A model generated the notes under the pieces. That model saw nothing but the letters and a program-made list of their open reading frames with translations. It did not search any database and was not told the DNA's origin. From assembly GCA_900319035.1 (NCBI GenBank), contig ONMU01000006.1:1-53018 (forward strand): a stretch of 53,018 nucleotides of DNA. The letters are read 5' to 3'. The number at the start of each line of letters is the position of its first letter. Position 1 is the stretch's first letter. Positions 3,479 through 52,645 of this stretch are shown here, piece by piece. The translations under genes and the position numbers were made by a program. This DNA is from an uncultured Bacteroidales bacterium (GTDB lineage: Bacteria > Bacteroidota > Bacteroidia > Bacteroidales > Paludibacteraceae).

Positions 3479-6400
3479 TTAGAATTTATACGTTACAGTA
3501 AGGAAGAAGTTAACACCCCACGCGTAGTAGTACTTGGAGGGGAATTTCCAAGCGTTGGCGCTGATAGCCGAGTTCTGGTAGTCTTTCTCGCCCTGTTTTA
3601 CGACACGCGGGAGACGAGCTTGCTGGTAGCCGCCGGTCTTGAAATGCGTGTTGTTGGTGATGTTGGTCACGCTGAGGTTGAGAGAGAGAGACTGACGTTT
3701 CGGCAGGTAGATCAGTTTGCCGACGGATACATCGATGAGGAAGCGGTTGAGCGGGTTGTTAGCCTGCAGTTTCTCTTGCTCGCTCATGATGTTATACGGA
3801 TATTTGAGTACCGGAACTCCGTTCTTATCCAGCGCAGCATTGTCGTAGATTGCGTTTCCGTTGTCATCCATACTTACGCGGAGCGCCTGTCCGTCGGTGG
3901 TCTCGATAGCGTTGGCATACGAGTCACCAAACCAACCGTTCACGCGGGTACCATCGGTACGAACGCCGGTGAAGAGACCTTGCATACGACGGCTCGGAGC
4001 CACGGAGAGGTAGTTCCAATCATGGTAGTTGACGGTAATGTCCGCAAACCACATCTTCGGGTGGAAGAACGAGAGCTTGAGACTTGCGTTGACTTGCGGA
4101 CCGGTTGCTACGCGAACGCCCTTGAGGAGCACCTTATCGGTAGTCTCAAAGACCAGACCTTTCGGGTTAGCAGCAGATACAATGGTCATATCTTCCGCCA
4201 ACGGCATTCCGTTCTCAGCCGAGGTAACGGCTGTCGGGTTGCTGGTATAGCGGTAGTCGCCGACAGAAGCCACACCGGTTAAGGTGAAGTAAGTACCCAT
4301 CTTGACAGATACGGCAGCCTCACCGCCGAAGTAACGTTTGTTGATGCCTGTGATCGCCTGATTGACGAACGTACGGGCATCATCGTCGTAGTAACCGTTG
4401 AGCTCTGTGCCATTCGAAGAAAGTGTGGTGAATGCGGTGATACGACCACGAACAATCGGATAGTTGAACTCGTACGTGAGGTCTGCAGAAAAGACATTCT
4501 CGGATGCTGCGTAGAAGTCTTTGAGGTTCTTAGCCTTGTCGTGCTTGTAGATATTCTCTACAACGCGGTCATGTACACGCTGCGAGATATACGCATCACG
4601 TGCATAAGGAGAACGACTTTCATCAAGAACATTAATTTTTATACGATTTCTACCATTAATTTTAAATGTTACACCAAATTTAGCCGCATAATCTAAGAAA
4701 TGGTGGGCGTCACCATAGTAGCGTGTGCCGGCTTTCACATGGTTCTCCAGATTTGCAAAACCGAGTTTGGAGAGTCTGTCGTACTCGGATTGACCGAAGT
4801 AGTACTCCGGATGCAACTCCTTATTATTCGGATCAGCAGCCAACTGCGTAGCGGAGGAGTAAGTCAGGAACCAAGCACGTCCGTTGAGCATCTTTGTTGT
4901 ACGCTGGAACATGTTATACTCCAGACCAACGGCATAGTTTAAATCGATCGAGTTGAAACTCCATTCGTTCTGGAACCATGCTTTTGCTTTCGCCATGTTG
5001 ATGGTATAGTCGTAGCCGAAACGGTTGCCACGGGTGATGCGTTTGTCGTAGTTCGAAGCAATCTCGTTCTCACGTACTTTGTTGATCTCACTTTGGCTGA
5101 ACCCAGTGTTGGAAGCCATCTCCTTGAGGTCACGCTCAGCGAAAGCATCGATATCAATCCATTGTTTAGCGCCGAGCAGATCGTCCATAGTCTTATAGTG
5201 AAAACCTTGCGAAGCCTTGAGCTCAACACCTAACGTCATTTTGAGAAGGTCGTATTTGGTGTTCACATAGTTGAGCGAAGCCATCTCTTCTTGCAGGTCG
5301 TTATGACGACGCTCCAAGAAATAACGAGCAGCTCCATTGGGGTTCGTGTGGTTGTTGGCGTAGTTAGCCGCATAGATGTTATCCCAATCTATCTGCGTCG
5401 TTTTGTTGTCACGCGCTTTCCAGAGATCTACGAGATGGTTGTATTGCTCCTTATTGATAGACGGACCGATGAGGTTTCCATCGTTTCCTTCAAAGGCGTT
5501 CGATGCAGCAAACGGATTGCCGTTCATATCCTCGCCGACGAACAGACCCCACGGATAGTGGTTACCTTTCTCGTCGAAGAGCTGTCCGGCAGAAGTAGTC
5601 TCGTTCGGGTTCGCGATCTGACCGTCCCACATAGCGGAAGGCAGGTTGCGGTAGTAGTCCGGACGAGGATCGGGAGCGTTGTAGAAGTTGAGAGCAGAGT
5701 TGGAGTAGAGCGAGTAGTGGTATCCGGCTGCTACTTTGATCTTCTGCGCATCGTCGATCTTGAACTCAAAAGCGGCGATGAGGGTCGGGTCATAGGACTT
5801 GACGATACGGCTGTTACGCACTTTACCGTTCTGGTAGCCCCAATAGGGGTTATAGTTGTTCGAACCGGTGAGGTCGTACACCTCCTGCGTCACGGCTGCG
5901 TTCTGACCACGCTCGGTGGGGGCACCAAAAGTGATCAGTTTGAGACGTGCTCTATCCCAGATCTTCTCTGCGGAAACGAAGTAACCGAGTGAGTAGTACT
6001 TGATACCTTCTCCGATGATACCTTTGTTGTCGATATACGGCGAGAAGCGGTACGCGAGTTGTGCTACTACAGCCCATCCGTTCTTCATGACGCCGGAAGC
6101 GTATGTCGCGTTCAGACGCACTTTGTAGTTACGGTTCGTACCGGCAGCTCCAACTTTCCAACCCTGTGCATAACGGCTTGCTCCCATGAGGTAGTTGGTC
6201 GATTGACCGATACCACCAAAGGTGAAGTTGGTAGCCTCCATGGGGTTGAGTACCTCTTTGTAGCGGCTTGCATCGTTCAGACCTCCCATAGCGGAGTAGT
6301 TGAAGTTACCGCGTTCCTGCGAGTTAAAGGGCAGACCCTCGATGTAGTAGTTCTCAACGTTCGACTGATAACCACGATTGCGGTAACGCGCTGTGGACCA

Positions 6401-14493: not shown

Positions 14494-14632
14494 TAAAAAC
14501 GGATTTTTTTGTAAAAAATAGAATTTATTCTATTATTTTAAGCACTATGGGTATGTGGGAGCTTGCTCACAAACATGCTCATAGCGATTAAAATAGAGGG
14601 CTTGCCCTTTTTACAAAAAATCCGTTTATTTG
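14490..14632. repeat. 143-bp imperfect inverted repeat
   Basis: The outer arms (14490-14517 and 14608-14632) are near-perfect inverted copies of CAAATAAACGGATTTTTTG followed by TAAAAA. Inside, CTATTATTTTAA (14530-14541) faces TTAAAATAGAGG (14588-14599), CTATG (14545-14549) faces CATAG (14580-14584), and GAGCTTGCTC (14559-14568) forms the tip. The whole segment can fold into one long interrupted hairpin. It overlaps the -33 element of the Rel promoter. No ORF lies here. Confidence 0.7.
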
Positions 14633-30350: not shown

Positions 30351-30530
30351 GCATTTTCGGAATTTTTTGTCATTTTTGTGAGGATTCTATCAGTGTCAAT
30401 TTATTGGTACTGATAAGTGGAATGGGGGAGAAAGCTATCTGTATGTTATACATACAAGTAGATTTATCAGCAATTACACTAAGTTGCATTAAGCAACTGT
30501 AGAATCCGTATTTTTCTTTATTTTTTTTGA
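30351..30530. repeat. Structured element B, copy 1
   Basis: The 5' flank GCATTTTCGGAATTTTTTG (30351-30369) and the T-rich 3' flank (30509-30530) enclose a folded core. The closing stem is GGATTCTA (30382-30389) with TAGAATCC (30500-30507). Inside are ATCAGT/ACTGAT (30389-30394/30409-30414), GTATGT-TAT-ACATAC (30441-30455) and GTTGC-ATTAA-GCAAC (30483-30497). It lies between two convergent genes. Copies 2 and 3 are at 32269 and 52468. Confidence 0.75.
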
Positions 30531-32268: not shown

Positions 32269-32445
32269 GCATTTTCGTAATTTTTTGGCATTTTTTGACA
32301 TCAAATAGAAATGTCATCTTGGATGAGAGGATTTGTTAGTAGCGGATTAGTGAAAGCTTGTTTTCGAGTAAGCCGGTAGTAACAAAGACTAAGAAGAACT
32401 AAAAGTTCTATTTCTATTTGATGATTTTTCTCTAATCTTTTTTGA
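32269..32445. repeat. Structured element B, copy 2
   Basis: The flank GCATTTTCGTAATTTTTTG (32269-32287) is followed by a perfect 14-bp closing stem, CATCAAATAGAAAT (32299-32312) with ATTTCTATTTGATG (32410-32423). Inside are CATC-TTG-GATG (32315-32325), TTGTTA/TAACAA extended by further pairs, GCTT/AAGC and AGAAC-TAAAA-GTTCT (32395-32409). A T-rich flank closes it. It lies upstream of the ATP-binding gene. Confidence 0.8.
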
Positions 32446-32696: not shown

Positions 32697-34199
32697 ATGA
32701 ACAATCAGGATATCGATTTTAGCAATCTCTCCGCTTATCGGGAAGGAAACCAATTGGAGGCAAAGAAAGCCACCAAAGGGTTGCCGAATTCTATCTGGGA
32801 GACGTACTCATCGTTTGCAAACACAGACGGTGGGTTGATTCTGCTGGGTGTGGAAGAGGCGAAGGATCATGCGTTGCATGCGGTGCATCTGGACGATCCG
32901 GAAGCACTGATTCGGGATTTCTGGAACACCATCAACAATCCGCAGAAAGTGAGCCTGAACATCCTGACGGACAGCATGGTGCGTACGCAAGAGGTGGACG
33001 GAGAGACGATAATCGTCATCGTAGTGCCTCGTGCTGAGCGAGAGTTGCGACCCATCTACGTGGGACTGGATCCCGTCAAGGGTACGTTCCGTCGCAATCA
33101 TGAAGGCGACTACCATTGTACGCGTGAACAGGTGTCGGCTATGTTCCGTGACGCGGCTCAGGTGAGCATCGACAAGAAGGTGCTGACGTACATGGACAAG
33201 TCGGTGTTTTGTCAGGATAGCATCAACGACTACCGCATCCTGTTCAATGCCAAGCACCCGAACCATGCGTGGACGAAGCTGGATGATGAACTGTTCCTGC
33301 GTCGGATCGGTGCGATGGGTGTGGATACAGAGACGAAGACGGTGCATCCTACGATTGCAGGACTGCTGATGTTTGGGTACGAATACGAGATTGTGCGTGA
33401 GTTCTCGCAGTATTTCCTGGATTATCAGGAGCGGATGGATCCGTCGATTCGATGGACGCACCGTGTGATCTCGTCGTCTGGGGACTGGAGCGGTAACCTG
33501 TTCGACTTCTATTTCCGGATCATCAACCGGCTGACGAGTGATCTGCCGGTGCCGTTTAAGTTGGTGAATAATGAGCGGGACGACGATACGCCATTGCATG
33601 AGACGGTGCGTGAGGCGCTGCTGAATGCGTTGGTGCATGCGGACTATTATGGTCGCATGGGAACGGTGATCATCAAGAGTCCGGAGACGCTGTCGTTTGC
33701 CAATTCGGGGGACATGCGTATCAGTCTGGCTATGGCGATGGAGGGAGGCTTCTCCGATCCACGTAACGCAACGCTAATGAAGATGTTCGGGATGATTGGG
33801 GTAGGTGAGCGTGCCGGAAGTGGCGTGCCGAATATCATCGCGACATGGGAGAACGAGACGCAGCATCGTCCGTCGTACAAGATTATGTACTCCCCGGAAC
33901 GTGTGATGTGTACAATTTTTGTCGCTGGTTCCGGCGATAAAATGGTGGAAGCCGGCGATAAACCGGTGATAAATGAGGTTTCCAGCGATAAATCCGGCGA
34001 TAAAGTGGCAAAATCCGGCGATAAACGACAGGTTATATTGGCGTATCTGGCTCAACATCCGAATTCAAGGAATGCTGAGATTGCAGCAGAACTAGGTTTG
34101 AGTGTGTCACAAACGCGTGATTATTTGAACGGACTGGTGGCTGCCGGATTGGTGGAAGAGTCAGGGGCTAATAAGAACCGGAAGTATAGCACGAAGTAA
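32697..34199 (+). CDS. AlbA_2/Schlafen-type ATP-binding protein with winged helix
   Basis: A 500-residue cytoplasmic protein of the type often annotated as ATP-binding protein or putative transcriptional regulator. The N-terminal AlbA_2 domain (about 8-125) contains YREGNQLEAKKA and SFANTDGGLILLGVEE. A GHKL-like HATPase_c_4 domain (about 290-385) has REALLNALVHADYY and GERAGSGVPNII. The C-terminus (435-500) is a winged helix (NAEIAAELGLSVSQTRDYL). Between them lies a linker with repeated GDK residues from a codon-phased DNA repeat. A role in regulation or defence has been suggested for relatives; none is proven here. It has its own promoter and stands directly before the polysaccharide region. 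Confidence 0.85.
   Translation: MNNQDIDFSNLSAYREGNQLEAKKATKGLPNSIWETYSSFANTDGGLILLGVEEAKDHALHAVHLDDPEALIRDFWNTINNPQKVSLNILTDSMVRTQEVDGETIIVIVVPRAERELRPIYVGLDPVKGTFRRNHEGDYHCTREQVSAMFRDAAQVSIDKKVLTYMDKSVFCQDSINDYRILFNAKHPNHAWTKLDDELFLRRIGAMGVDTETKTVHPTIAGLLMFGYEYEIVREFSQYFLDYQERMDPSIRWTHRVISSSGDWSGNLFDFYFRIINRLTSDLPVPFKLVNNERDDDTPLHETVREALLNALVHADYYGRMGTVIIKSPETLSFANSGDMRISLAMAMEGGFSDPRNATLMKMFGMIGVGERAGSGVPNIIATWENETQHRPSYKIMYSPERVMCTIFVAGSGDKMVEAGDKPVINEVSSDKSGDKVAKSGDKRQVILAYLAQHPNSRNAEIAAELGLSVSQTRDYLNGLVAAGLVEESGANKNRKYSTK
33928..34026. repeat. Codon-phased GGCGATAAA repeat
   Basis: Six copies of GCGATAAA or GTGATAAA, irregularly spaced in multiples of three, encode SGDK, AGDK and similar motifs in the linker before the winged helix. 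Such GDK-rich linkers are, to my knowledge, common in this protein type. Confidence 0.75.
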
Positions 34200-34350
34200 T
34201 TCTTTTCTATCAAAAACTGGCAGAAAACAAGGATTTTAAAGTTAAACATGAAAGATAAAAGACAAAAATCCATCGTAACTCCCTGTAAATAAGCGGTGAT
34301 CGTTCTCGTTTGGAAACCAAAGAAAAGAAAAAGAAAAACAAACCACCATC

Positions 34351-34384
34351 CATATGGTCCCGGAACCCCGCAAGACGGAACTCG
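34351..34384 (+). pseudogene. Remnant 5' end of a GxxExxY gene
   Basis: These 34 bases are identical to 34887-34920 near the start of the intact GxxExxY gene (residues MVPEPRKTEL). After them the reading frame runs into a stop within five codons. The remnant stands before element A copy 1 just as the intact gene stands before copy 2, which points to a tandem duplication followed by deletion. The rest of 34200-34410 has no gene that I can support. Confidence 0.75.
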
Positions 34385-34410
34385 CACCCAATGAACATTG
34401 ACATCTTGTA

Positions 34411-34835
34411 AATCAAAAACACGGAATCAGCAACGCTATCGCGTTTTACGTAATAGTTCCTTAATCTACTTGTGAACAAGTTCCCAGATAGCTTAATGAC
34501 CTATTCTGCTAAGCACCAACGATCAATCATTGTTGCTTGATTCCTCACGAAAACGCGCTACGTTTACAAAAAAGCGCTACGCTTTCAAAAACGGCTATGC
34601 AGCGTGCAGGTAATAAAGAAAAATTATTACGCCATACGTTGAAAATGTTTTTGATCATTTTTGTGAGTGCAACGAGTTTTTGTAAGCAGCCGACAGTGCT
34701 CATGTTTGGGCAATGTCGAAGCGAAAATGGTTATTAAGGGCGATGTGAGCTCGCTCACGATCGCATTAAGAAGCATTTACGCTCAAGGCCGCGTAGGCCA
34801 ATAGCCATGCGGACGTTGGCTGCGCGTTTTTGATT
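34411..34835. repeat. Structured element A, copy 1
   Basis: A 425-bp element ending 30 bases before the GxxExxY start codon. Its ends are inverted repeats, AATCAAAAACACG and CGCGTTTTTGATT. Inside are a long stem GGAATCAGCAAC/GTTGCTTGATTCC with one bulged T, hairpin CTAT/ATAG (34436-34456), tandem CGCTACGNTT blocks (34556-34600), a CGACA/TGTCG hairpin (34690-34718) and GTGAGC-TC-GCTCAC (34745-34758). A conserved 3' block (34771-34835) includes GGCCGCGTAGGCC. No ORF of note. Confidence 0.8.
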
Positions 34836-34865
34836 TACTACTTTACTACTAACAATATAACTGAA

Positions 34866-35312
34866 ATGCAAGATAAGACAACAATACATATGGTCCCGGA
34901 ACCCCGCAAGACGGAACTCGTCAATGCCACCTATGGCATTGTGGGAGCGATGATAGAGGTATATAAGAACCTCGGGGCCGGCTTGCCGGAGTATATCTAC
35001 CAAGAGGCACTCTTCACGGAACTGCAGGCCAACGGCTTTACTGCGCATAAGGAGTTGGAGTATCATCCCATTTACAAGGGCAAACCTCTCAATGCATATC
35101 TTAAAATGGATTTGGTGGTAGAGACACCTATTGGCAATGTGATTGTGGAATGTAAGGCATTGACGGCGCTCACTGAACGGGAGCACTATCAAACCTTCGG
35201 GTATCTGCGCGGAACGGGATGGCCTATGGCGATACTTGTTAACTTTGGTGCCAGCCCACGTGCACAGATAGAACGATTTTATAATGATAACAACACCATC
35301 GCGGTGTTTTAA
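34866..35312 (+). CDS. GxxExxY protein (PD-(D/E)XK-like)
   Basis: A 148-residue protein of the GxxExxY family, named for the motif seen here as GLPEYIY. The core shows the nuclease-like pattern of an Asp in LKMDLVV and E-x-K in IVECKAL, then a Gln/Tyr helix (HYQTFGYL) and ILVNFG. These resemble PD-(D/E)XK enzymes, but no activity has been established to my knowledge. I start at the ATG at 34866, since an earlier TTG-type start at 34830 would lie within the end of element A. It sits between the two copies of element A and just before the polysaccharide operon, with an identical remnant of its 5' end at 34351. Confidence 0.85.
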   Translation: MQDKTTIHMVPEPRKTELVNATYGIVGAMIEVYKNLGAGLPEYIYQEALFTELQANGFTAHKELEYHPIYKGKPLNAYLKMDLVVETPIGNVIVECKALTALTEREHYQTFGYLRGTGWPMAILVNFGASPRAQIERFYNDNNTIAVF

Positions 35313-35502
35313 TAAATGTTTTTGACCGTTTTTTGAATTGTTTTTATAAAGCGGTTGAATATATAGAAAATATATTGTGATATCGAATGACGTGAATATG
35401 GAAACTTGTTTATGAAAGACAAGTCATACGATAACACATGAACCCAAAGGGTTAACCGCTGAGTGTTTGGTTAACTCATAAAGAATAAAACGAAAGGAGA
35501 TA

Positions 35503-35955
35503 AATCAAAAACACGGAATCAACAGTTACTTGTCGTAACTTAGTGGATTTGCTTGCTAACCTACTTGTGAGCCAGCTTCCAGATAGCTTACTAACCAACT
35601 CCACTTAACAGCACCGATAAATCGTTCCTGTTAGATTCCTCGCAAAAACGCACTACGTTTACAAAAAAGCGCTACGCTTTCAAAAACGACTATGCTATGC
35701 AACGTGCAGATAATAAAGAAAAATTATTACGCCATACGTTGAGAATGTTTTTGATAGTGGAATGCAATGAAACGCTTTTTTGTGAGTGCAACGAGTTTTT
35801 GTAAGCAGCCGACAGTGCACATGTTTGGGCAATGTCGGAGCAGAAATGACAATTAGGCTGTCTAGGAGTCTTGCTCATAAGCAGACTAAATGGCATTTAC
35901 GCTCAAGGCCGCGTAGGCCAATAGCCATGCGGACGTAGGCTGCGCGTTTTTGATT
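35503..35955. repeat. Structured element A, copy 2
   Basis: A 453-bp second copy, ending 27 bases before the Wzt start. The ends are the same inverted repeats as in copy 1. The long stem is here GGAATCAACAG/CTGTTAGATTCC with a bulged A, the next hairpin is GTTAC-TTGTC-GTAAC (35525-35539), then AGTGGA/TCCACT, CGAT-AA-ATCG and the shared CGACA/TGTCG hairpin. The variable 3' hairpin is GTCT/AGAC plus GAG/CTC (35860-35886). The last 65 bp are almost identical to copy 1. Upstream, 35313-35502 holds only short inverted repeats such as AACCCAAAGGGTT; I found no TAnnTTTG promoter there. Confidence 0.8.
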
Positions 35956-35982
35956 AAAAAATAAACAGAAAAATATATAACA

Positions 35983-37278
35983 ATGAGTACAGCAATAGAA
36001 TTCAACCACGTATCCAAGCAATACCGCCTCGGCCTGGTCTCCACCAAGACCCTGTCCCACGATATCCGCCGCTTTTGGATCACCAACGTCCTTGGCAAGG
36101 AGGATCCGTATCTTAAGATCGGCGAGACCAACGACCGTGCATCGAAGGGCAACTCTGACTACGTCTGGGCGCTGCGCGACATCGATTTCAAGGTCGAGCA
36201 AGGCGACGTCGTCGGCATCATCGGCAAGAACGGTGCCGGCAAATCGACCCTCTTGAAACTCCTGAGCCGCGTCACCGGTCCTACTACCGGCACTATCCGT
36301 GCCCATGGCCGTATTGGCTCCCTCTTGGAAGTCGGTACGGGCTTCCATGGCGAGATGACGGGAAGGGAGAATATCTTCATGAACGGCGCCATCCTCGGCA
36401 TGACGCGTAATGAGATCCAAGCCAAGCTGGACGAGATCATTGATTTCTCCGGCTGTGAGAGATATATTGACACCCCTGTGAAGCGTTATTCCTCCGGTAT
36501 GACTGTCCGTCTGGGCTTCGCCGTAGCAGCCTTCCTCGAACCCGAGATCCTCGTCGTGGACGAAGTCCTCGCCGTCGGCGATGCCGAGTTTCAAAAGAAA
36601 GCCATCGGCAAGATGAAAGACGTTTCCCAAGGGCAAGGCCGCACCGTCCTCTTCGTTAGTCATAATATGGGATCCATCAGACAGTTGTGTACAAGAGGAG
36701 TATTGCTGAAGAATGGAATGATCGATTTTATGGGTGATGTAAATGATACAGTTTCCAGATATATGGTAGCAAATATCGGCGATGTAGATTCCGATATTGT
36801 GAATAGACCGGATAAGATTGGCAATAAGAAGGTCGAGATAACGAATATTGCGTTCAAGCGAGCCAATGGGGAATATATCACGGAAGCGTTCATGGGTGAA
36901 CCGCTGGAGATTGAGTTCAAGTATCGTGTGAATGATCCGACTGCAGACTTATCAAAGATGATTGTGGCTGTAAGCTTCTGCGATGCTTACGGCAATGATT
37001 TAGTAGAGTGGGTATCGGATGAGATGCATCAAGACTTCGGGAAGTTAAATAAGAAAGAAGGTTCATTCTTCCTGAAGATTCCGAACTTGTACCTTCGTTC
37101 GCAGATGTACTATATGTCGTATCAAGTCTCGCTAAATAGCACTGCTCCGGAAGATTTCTGTGACAAACTGACGAATGCCACCGCGTTACTTGTGATGTCG
37201 AAAGGCTTTTTTACAGATGATATTCAAGTAGCACGTCGTGGGTATCAAGCATTGATGCCGGCAGCGTTTGCTATATAG
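35983..37278 (+). CDS. Wzt-type polysaccharide ABC exporter, ATPase subunit
   Basis: The cytoplasmic ATPase of an ABC exporter for O-antigen- or capsule-like chains. The 431 residues contain Walker A GKNGAGKST (about 83-91), the family block VGTGFHGEMTGRENIFMNG, signature YSSGMTVRLGFA and Walker B ILVVDEVLAVGD. A C-terminal beta-sandwich (about 270-420) is of the Wzt substrate-recognition type, which in known systems binds the capped non-reducing end. The permease Wzm, normally adjacent, is absent. Base use changes sharply at about 36660, from GC-rich ATPase codons to AT-rich codons like the rest of the locus. It is the first gene of the glycan operon, directly after element A copy 2. Confidence 0.92.
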   Translation: MSTAIEFNHVSKQYRLGLVSTKTLSHDIRRFWITNVLGKEDPYLKIGETNDRASKGNSDYVWALRDIDFKVEQGDVVGIIGKNGAGKSTLLKLLSRVTGPTTGTIRAHGRIGSLLEVGTGFHGEMTGRENIFMNGAILGMTRNEIQAKLDEIIDFSGCERYIDTPVKRYSSGMTVRLGFAVAAFLEPEILVVDEVLAVGDAEFQKKAIGKMKDVSQGQGRTVLFVSHNMGSIRQLCTRGVLLKNGMIDFMGDVNDTVSRYMVANIGDVDSDIVNRPDKIGNKKVEITNIAFKRANGEYITEAFMGEPLEIEFKYRVNDPTADLSKMIVAVSFCDAYGNDLVEWVSDEMHQDFGKLNKKEGSFFLKIPNLYLRSQMYYMSYQVSLNSTAPEDFCDKLTNATALLVMSKGFFTDDIQVARRGYQALMPAAFAI

Positions 37279-52353: not shown

Positions 52354-52645
52354 GCTATTTTCGTCATTTTTTGATATTTTCGCCTGGAGAAGCCAATTGA
52401 CTTTTGGCTTCGAAAAGGGTAAGCGTCCGGGGAGGACTGGCTGACCGAGAGTGATAGCAGTTACATCCATTTTCGGAATTTTTTGATATTTTCGCCATTA
52501 AATAACAATGACATCTTGGATGTGGAGATTCATTGTGGATTGGCTATCTAAAAGCTTGTTTTTAAGTAGGCAATACAAAATGAAGATTCAAGGTACGGCA
52601 AGTACTATTGTTATTTAATGTTATTTTTCTTTATAATTTTTTTTG
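52354..52645. repeat. Structured element B, copy 3, with an extra upstream flank
   Basis: A second 5' flank (52354-52384) precedes GAAGCCAA/TTGGCTTC and GTCC/GGAC hairpins. The full element follows at 52468-52645: flank CATTTTCGGAATTTTTTG, closing stem CATTAAATAACAAT (52496-52509) with ATTGTTATTTAATG (52607-52620), CATC-TTG-GATG, a long inner stem, GTAC-GGCAA-GTAC (52593-52605) and a T-rich flank. The 491-bp gap 52240-52730 has no gene. Confidence 0.8.

Follow-up and report, generated by a model that had tools for sequence, protein, structure and literature searches.

REP elements are linked to the Y1/HUH protein RAYT (TnpAREP), and their units are palindromes of 20–40 bp. To our knowledge, the known transposases fall into few enzyme classes, namely DDE, HUH, tyrosine, serine and Cas1-type enzymes. 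REPIN-RAYT systems combine inverted pairs of structured intergenic DNA units and their gene-less dispersal with one small nuclease gene beside them. MITEs and insertion sequences are characterized by terminal inverted repeats, target-site duplications and gene-less copies produced by internal deletion. For IS1549 and IS1634 of the IS1634 family, long and variable duplications of 8–514 bp are on record (PMC2266710); the 23S rRNA intervening sequences with an S23 ORF are presented as small selfish elements with one small ORF (PMC4990558). For the family GxxExxY (TIGR04256, PF13366, PDDEXK_3), no paper giving it a function was found in open-licence PMC text, and one paper there mentions GxxExxY as the neighbour of a CRISPR-like RT.

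The locus analysed here lies in a window of 53,018 bases (bases 1–53018 of a 118-kb contig from a 2.48-Mb draft genome) and resembles several of these systems. It shares with REPIN-RAYT the inverted pairs, the gene-less dispersal and the adjacent nuclease gene. However, a RAYT (Y1 HUH) gene flanked by repeats is absent, the flanked gene being a PF13366 member, so that a PD-(D/E)XK protein takes the place of the Y1/HUH enzyme; moreover, the units are cloverleafs of about 140 nt instead of short palindromes, and the elements end in terminal repeats and carry duplicated target sites. Target-site duplications, terminal inverted repeats and gene-less internal-deletion copies are features shared with MITEs and insertion sequences, and the long variable duplications with the IS1634 family. 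In contrast to both, there is no recognised transposase, the subterminal modules are cloverleafs, and GxxExxY is the only recognised gene. Unlike the 23S rRNA intervening sequences, the elements are mostly intergenic (only six of 118 modules overlap a called ORF by more than half, the other 112 staying below this limit), their ORF belongs to a different family, and the window contains no rRNA match. No description of the element was found among the titles and abstract openings of the open-licence PMC papers retrieved for IS1549/IS1634, for MITEs of Bacteroidales, for REPINs, for PDDEXK/cruciform and for intervening sequences of rRNA.

In the window, copy 1 is followed by the GxxExxY gene, a right-type module, copy 2 and the Wzt gene, in this order (Table 1). 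Copy 1 (about 34410–34840) and copy 2 (about 35502–35955) are 79% identical, are both bounded by AAATCAAAAAC/GTTTTTGATT(T) in our reading of the sequence, and end 27–30 bases upstream of ATG 34866 (GxxExxY) and ATG 35983 (Wzt). A sequence-only reading had described two copies with the same terminal inverted repeat at this distance from the two start codons, which is confirmed. Judged by eye, the motif TAA-Y-C-R-AAAA is common to the outward flanks of module matches. Outside the window, another GxxExxY gene from the clade of the window's gene lies beside an element (C29, 108876–109226).

Table 1. Features of the locus and further modules in the window, with their positions, strands and supporting evidence (R1 and R2, first and second module model).
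Feature	Position	Strand	Evidence
Single weaker module	14504..14632	-	R1 E 6e-5; R2 52.2 bits
Single cloverleaf module	30371..30516	-	R1 139.2 bits (seed sequence); R2 125.6 bits
Single weaker module	32290..32430	-	R2 46.7 bits, E 1e-6; absent from R1 list
34-bp repeat of first GxxExxY codons (34888–34921), upstream of copy 1	34351..34384	+	sequence reading
Left terminal inverted repeat, copy 1, GTAAATCAAAAAC	34408..34420	+	sequence reading
Copy 1 left cloverleaf module	34414..34555	+	R1 126 bits, E 1e-23 (R1 seed sequence); R2 114.6 bits
Copy 1 right cloverleaf module, inverted	34675..34832	-	R1 64.2 bits, E 8e-11, outside R1 seed; R2 100.6 bits
Right terminal inverted repeat, copy 1, GTTTTTGATTTAC on + strand	34826..34838	-	sequence reading
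GxxExxY gene (148 aa; family of PD-(D/E)XK nucleases), candidate mobility protein	34866..35312	+	PF13366 97.6 bits; TIGR04256 101.1 bits
Right-type cloverleaf module directly after GxxExxY stop codon	35339..35469	-	R1 E 4.5e-4; R2 56.9 bits, E 1e-8
Left terminal inverted repeat, copy 2, AAATCAAAAAC	35502..35512	+	sequence reading
Copy 2 left cloverleaf module	35506..35650	+	R1 152.5 bits (R1 seed sequence); R2 133 bits
Copy 2 right cloverleaf module, inverted, 30 bases before Wzt start codon	35794..35952	-	R1 78.1 bits, E 1e-13, outside R1 seed; R2 109.3 bits
Single weaker module	52487..52629	-	R1 E 2e-4; R2 55.9 bits

The block 34340–36720 was compared with C28 101910–104358 of genome G345 and C19 25726–27932 of genome G007. 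Pieces of it, comprising the elements and GxxExxY, recur in these two other species with 78–89% identity, and the first 740 or so bases of Wzt are kept with them (87–88%). For most of the polysaccharide cluster beyond the Wzt start, matches in G345 and G007 are weaker or missing. The block with the Wzt start thus looks as if it were a recombination boundary for the swapping of polysaccharide clusters. The 34-bp repeat upstream of copy 1 may be what is left of an older, truncated GxxExxY gene copy, and a similar remnant is found in G345 and G007. The right-type module that follows the GxxExxY gene (window 35334–35462) is missing in G007 at C19 26497–26502, which reflects either a near-precise deletion or an unoccupied site. 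Upstream of the block, at 32697–34199, lies a Schlafen/AlbA-type gene with a helix-turn-helix; PADLOC reports a pAgo-model match of 33.8 bits for it, and inspection by eye showed consecutive coding repeats resembling GGCGATAAA within it, near 33930–34030.

Each copy consists of two cloverleaf modules that are inverted relative to each other. Folding of single copies and alignment of 14 left modules yielded an architecture of a closing stem, a short hairpin, a long central helix with single mismatches, and a third hairpin. A profile made from left modules only detects right modules on the opposite strand (window 35914–35795, E 2e-9). With this structure fixed, 84.5% of the cells in the 14 left modules pair and double changes occur at 29 of 46 pairs, a count that was reached in none of 500 shuffles; the covariation score is 0.391, compared to 0.184 ± 0.014 for shuffled and at most 0.105 for slid alignments. 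The number of further pair types was not in excess of the shuffles (217/500). One search round extended the set to 71 distinct modules, in an alignment that was fitted to the model and is hence biased towards it: 84% of the cells pair, double changes occur in every one of the 46 pairs, and the covariation score rises to 0.618 (0.183 ± 0.007 shuffled, 0.058–0.094 slid). The earlier observation that the stems are kept with other bases therefore holds, and the covariation extends to the wider alignment.

The pairing scheme that had been proposed along with this observation stands in part. On the + strand of copy 1, AGCAAC/GTTGCT is indeed the minimum-energy fold (−30.1 kcal/mol, versus −27.8 with the AACGC/GCGTT hairpin forced). 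On the complementary, better-folding strand, the minimum is the cloverleaf (−35.1 kcal/mol, versus −32.4 with the AGCAAC/GTTGCT stem forced); AGCAAC/GTTGCT was consequently rejected as the outer stem of copy 1, the cloverleaf being preferred because covariation supports it. The first hairpin of copy 2 is AGTTAC/GTAACT, and CTGTT pairs with a later TAACAG. Few letters are conserved outside of the pairs, namely the apex AGCAAGCTC (module strand), which Paludibacteraceae-type loci share with the other loci, and the A-tracts that flank the module on either side (outer 128/137, inner 131/137, interior control 3; the model includes these columns). Where modules neighbour each other within 1.5 kb, the arrangement is +- in 39 cases, -- in 19, -+ in 10 and ++ in 5, and 23 of the 39 +- neighbours are spaced by 100–200 bp.

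Of the 101 genomes of the genus, 47 contain modules according to model R1, which has 25 matches on several contigs of the window's own genome. With model R2, three of 295 genomes from the order proved to contain modules, namely that of the window, a second one from its genus, and G311 from another family. Since the order-wide search scored 10 candidates per genome, absence elsewhere is weak evidence. The modules of G311 also form inverted pairs; at L187–L189 they have a different flank motif, which is AAGAT-GAAAAATGGA in several of them. Among 12 genomes chosen via their GxxExxY relatives, nine contain modules, with 1 to 23 each. Close relatives of the window's GxxExxY gene in named records stem mostly from MAGs titled 'Bacteroidales' or 'Paludibacteraceae', many of them from the rumen. 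In blastn searches, copy 1 found no match in phages and copy 2 none in plasmids.

The protein encoded between the two copies belongs to TIGR04256, for which the curated cut-off is 35 bits. Its predicted structure has a pLDDT of 94.7. In a Foldseek search with this model, Cas4 SSO0001 from Sulfolobus ranked best (E 2e-4), followed by archaeal Hjc, a Holliday-junction resolvase (E 2e-3), with R2 retrotransposon proteins ranking lower. The TM-scores, by query length, are about 0.50 for Cas4 SSO0001 and 0.38–0.41 for Hjc; because these values are modest, the likeness is one of fold class and not of close relation, and a sequence search of the PDB found no relative below E 0.17. The fold contains the PD-(D/E)XK active-site residues D...E-x-K. 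D82, K97, Q109 and Y113 are kept in all 59 GxxExxY sequences and E95 in 58 of them; the motif Q-x3-Y formed by Q109 and Y113 is presumably Cas4-like. PADLOC assigned no family to the protein. In fold class and type of active site, GxxExxY is thus a predicted PD-(D/E)XK nuclease of the Cas4/Hjc type. The dN/dS values of 0.037–0.047 with respect to five close orthologues (five more were saturated) indicate that the gene is under purifying selection.

The 101 genomes of the genus contain 85 PF13366 matches, 80 of which were fetched with their flanks. A module lies within 700 bp in 35 of the 46 loci scoring at most 112 bits, but in only one of the 34 that score higher. Of these 35 low-scoring loci, 33 show a + module to the left or a - module to the right, and 11 show both; other orientations occur in a few module-linked loci, among them L147 and L156. 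As this score split was noticed from the data, a tree is the better test. In a tree of 78 genes, 35 of 36 module-linked genes fall into one clade of 46 (support 100/96), and 10 label changes are needed, compared to 26.2 in shuffles (0/500), although near-copies aid such clustering. Counted by genome, modules are present in 26 of 29 genomes with the low-scoring clade versus 21 of 72 without it (p 2e-8), whereas the high-scoring clade shows no association (9/23 versus 38/78, p 0.48). Conversely, 21 of the 47 module-bearing genomes, many of which are incomplete MAGs, have no low-scoring GxxExxY match, and 3 of the 29 genomes with that clade have no module.

A collection of named genomes provided 80 relatives from the best 150 of 169 matches; they were searched with a model trained on the window's genus only. 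Among these best matches, 40 of 44 close relatives and 23 of 36 distant ones have a module no more than 700 bp away, and a + module on the left occurs together with a - module on the right in 14 close and 11 distant ones. Non-canonical orientations amount to 7 (left -) and 15 (right +) of 44 in the close group and to 2 and 1, respectively, of 36 in the distant group. The module-linked clade spans Paludibacteraceae and Prevotellaceae. Gene trees and neighbourhoods together establish that the association between GxxExxY and the modules is clade-specific; other members of the family are not tied to modules.

Evidence for movement comes from relatives outside the window's genus. The isolate Hallella mizrahii LKV-178-WT-2A contains three GxxExxY-bearing copies and many gene-less matches. 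Two of the gene-bearing copies, located in different surroundings, share 97.8% identity over 1051 bp. The frame of 149 codons is intact in two of the three (L287 and L255/L288); because the frame of L289 is broken and L288 lacks the outer left end, L287 is the only one with both ends and an intact gene. The ends of this first type are CCTGACTTC...GAAGTCAGG. Terminal inverted repeats are present in the form of CCTGACTTC/GAAGTCAGG and of GGCGCACTGGATATTTTCCGTGG, as is GTAAATCAAAAAC in copy 1 of the window. Six of 12 Hallella copies having both ends show target-site duplications above a null of 132 mismatched pairs, whose maximum score was 9. The lengths are 97 bp (94 identical; L287), 56 bp (51 identical), 34, 20, 16 and 10 bp; a seventh copy, L319, scores the same as the null maximum, apparently with an indel. 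The search for empty sites used five insertions, whose flanks, joined around a single copy of the target, were compared with 60 genomes of the genus, including Hallella's own. An empty site was found in G444 (C18 2352–2770), with 91% identity across the junction and the 34-bp target present once; the other four sites were not covered whole in the 60 genomes.

A second type of terminus, CACTGGATATTTTCCGTGG, is carried by Hallella and by Prevotella RUG753. The two genomes contain 67 such sites, of which the analysis covered those that form pairs no more than 2.6 kb apart in the fetched loci. Duplications of 7–11 bp with a score of at least 7 (reached by 3.75% of 240 null pairs) were detected in nine of 16 delimited elements, three of the nine sharing one flank. 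In genomes G395 and G403 (L349–L358, L369–L398) both terminus types are found on one cloverleaf/GxxExxY family, and in L352 and L358 the first type sits inside longer flanks. With respect to the origin of gene-less copies, one from RUG753 (L252) joins base 4011 to base 4354 of the gene-bearing L254, and the gene-less Hallella copy L318 retains both ends of the GxxExxY gene; as judged from these junctions, gene-less copies arise from gene-bearing ones by internal deletion. L327 and L328 of Hallella mizrahii are copies of 296/297 bp that seem to have arisen by recombination between the left and the right module, with the loss of most of both cloverleafs.

The genome comparisons thus demonstrate mobility of the element family in Hallella. 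In the window's own genus, no pair exceeded the duplication null (one of 44 reaches 15, the null maximum among 250), and the window pairs, which score 3, 4 and 8, have no significant target-site duplication. The window copies are old, as their identity of 79% indicates, and their mobility is therefore deduced from relatives. The alternative offered by the sequence-only reading, a mobile structured element carrying GxxExxY, accordingly agrees with the clade-specific link, the duplications in relatives and the empty site.

The two copies are probably gene-less members of a family of Bacteroidales transposable elements that flank a GxxExxY gene, and it appears rather probable that GxxExxY drives the mobility of these elements. 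A complete element would consist of a terminal repeat, a cloverleaf, the GxxExxY gene, an inverted cloverleaf and a terminal repeat, with a length of about 0.8–1.1 kb; loss of the gene would leave shorter copies, mostly of 0.2–0.8 kb. GxxExxY may recognise the cloverleafs, extruded as cruciforms or present as a single strand, by means of the conserved apex GAGCTTGCTC on the better-folding strand and the A-tracts on both sides, and may cut at the terminal repeats. Two nicks whose spacing varies could then open the target, and fill-in during repair would create the duplications of 7–97 bp. Gene-less copies would be moved in trans, by analogy to what is proposed for REPIN-RAYT. The existence of two termini (CCTGACTTC with 10–97 bp and CACTGGATATTTTCCGTGG with 7–11 bp) suggests more than one reaction or enzyme. 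It is an evenly balanced question whether this amounts to a new class of DNA transposon, whose sole protein would be a single-domain PD-(D/E)XK, junction-resolvase-like nuclease acting on cloverleaf inverted ends and producing variable duplications of up to about 100 bp.

It is unlikely, albeit worth serious consideration, that the element is instead moved in trans by an unrelated transposase, for example of the DDE type, and that GxxExxY and the cloverleafs are passengers or have another role such as end protection. The gene-bearing copy of Prevotella RUG753, with its perfect terminal repeat of 23 bp and target duplications of 7–8 bp, resembles a classical DDE insertion sequence, and the record of IS1549 and IS1634 offers a precedent for long variable duplications. 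Furthermore, short copies without full modules still show duplications (56 bp for L328 and 8 bp for L394, a copy of 195 bp); the modules may therefore be dispensable for insertion, or were lost later. However, 28 delimited elements contain 26 frames of at least 60 aa, and a Pfam scan of ten of these matched PF13366 alone and no DDE, HUH, tyrosine or serine transposase. In the draft assembly of Hallella, 22 of 24 CCTGACTTCNTCA sites are ends of these elements, and while the termini vary between genomes, GxxExxY and the modules stay together.

We consider it quite improbable that the modules act as RNA, be it as outward-reading 3' ends, as terminators or insulators, or as a scaffold RNA bound by GxxExxY. 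The complementary strand, which reads from the inside to the outside of the element and ends in a T run, has the better fold in 66 of 67 modules under RNA parameters (mean −50.7 versus −40.9 kcal/mol). Its mismatches are purine-purine, as those of the module strand are pyrimidine-pyrimidine (336 YY versus 29 RR). A CUUG tetraloop, which is a stable structure, can form at its apex GAGCUUGCUC, and terminator-like sites end at 34824 and 35944 (six sites found versus 2.0 ± 1.4 in shuffles). On the other hand, DNA parameters give an equal strand bias (67/67), and the A-tracts flank the modules on both sides. G-U accounts for 2.2% of the module-strand pairs and A-C, which is G-U on the other strand, for about 4%, one T-G position (41/69) being excluded; such shares are low for RNA. 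Searched with Rfam 15, the window has no structured-RNA match at gathering score except a tRNA elsewhere (898–971, called tRNA-His by ARAGORN), and at E ≤ 5 just two weak, unrelated matches to a microRNA and a snoRNA, far below gathering. The bias towards the outward strand shows a strand preference, which is consistent with single-stranded DNA as well as with RNA. Because the two ends are inverted, their preferred strands are opposite strands, and this would suit DNA ends better than one transcript.

That the copies are a leader RNA governing read-through into the polysaccharide operon is hardly credible: copy 2 does end 27 bases before the Wzt gene, elements lie just before a Wzt-like start in four genomes (G000, G007, G046 and G029, by eye) and the block is kept between species up to the first part of Wzt, but many copies lie elsewhere, with 70 tandem, 18 convergent and 12 divergent placements among 100 intergenic matches with both neighbours called, and relatives transpose. 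As a general function, this leader role, which had been put forward as the first interpretation, does not find support; of the placements expected, the association with GxxExxY was found, together with many matches outside leaders. A local effect of the element on the Wzt operon may exist and is conceivable because of the placement before Wzt in the four genomes.

The cloverleaf ends, which are kept largely as base pairing, clearly exemplify selection acting on the structure of a nucleic acid. Should GxxExxY prove to be a mere passenger, the elements would still constitute a MITE group of rumen and gut Bacteroidales that is undescribed in the literature searched. If, however, GxxExxY is the mobility protein, a mobile family with only a PD-(D/E)XK enzyme would add a class of transposases, the GxxExxY family would gain a function, and the Cas4/Hjc-type fold would be linked to mobility.
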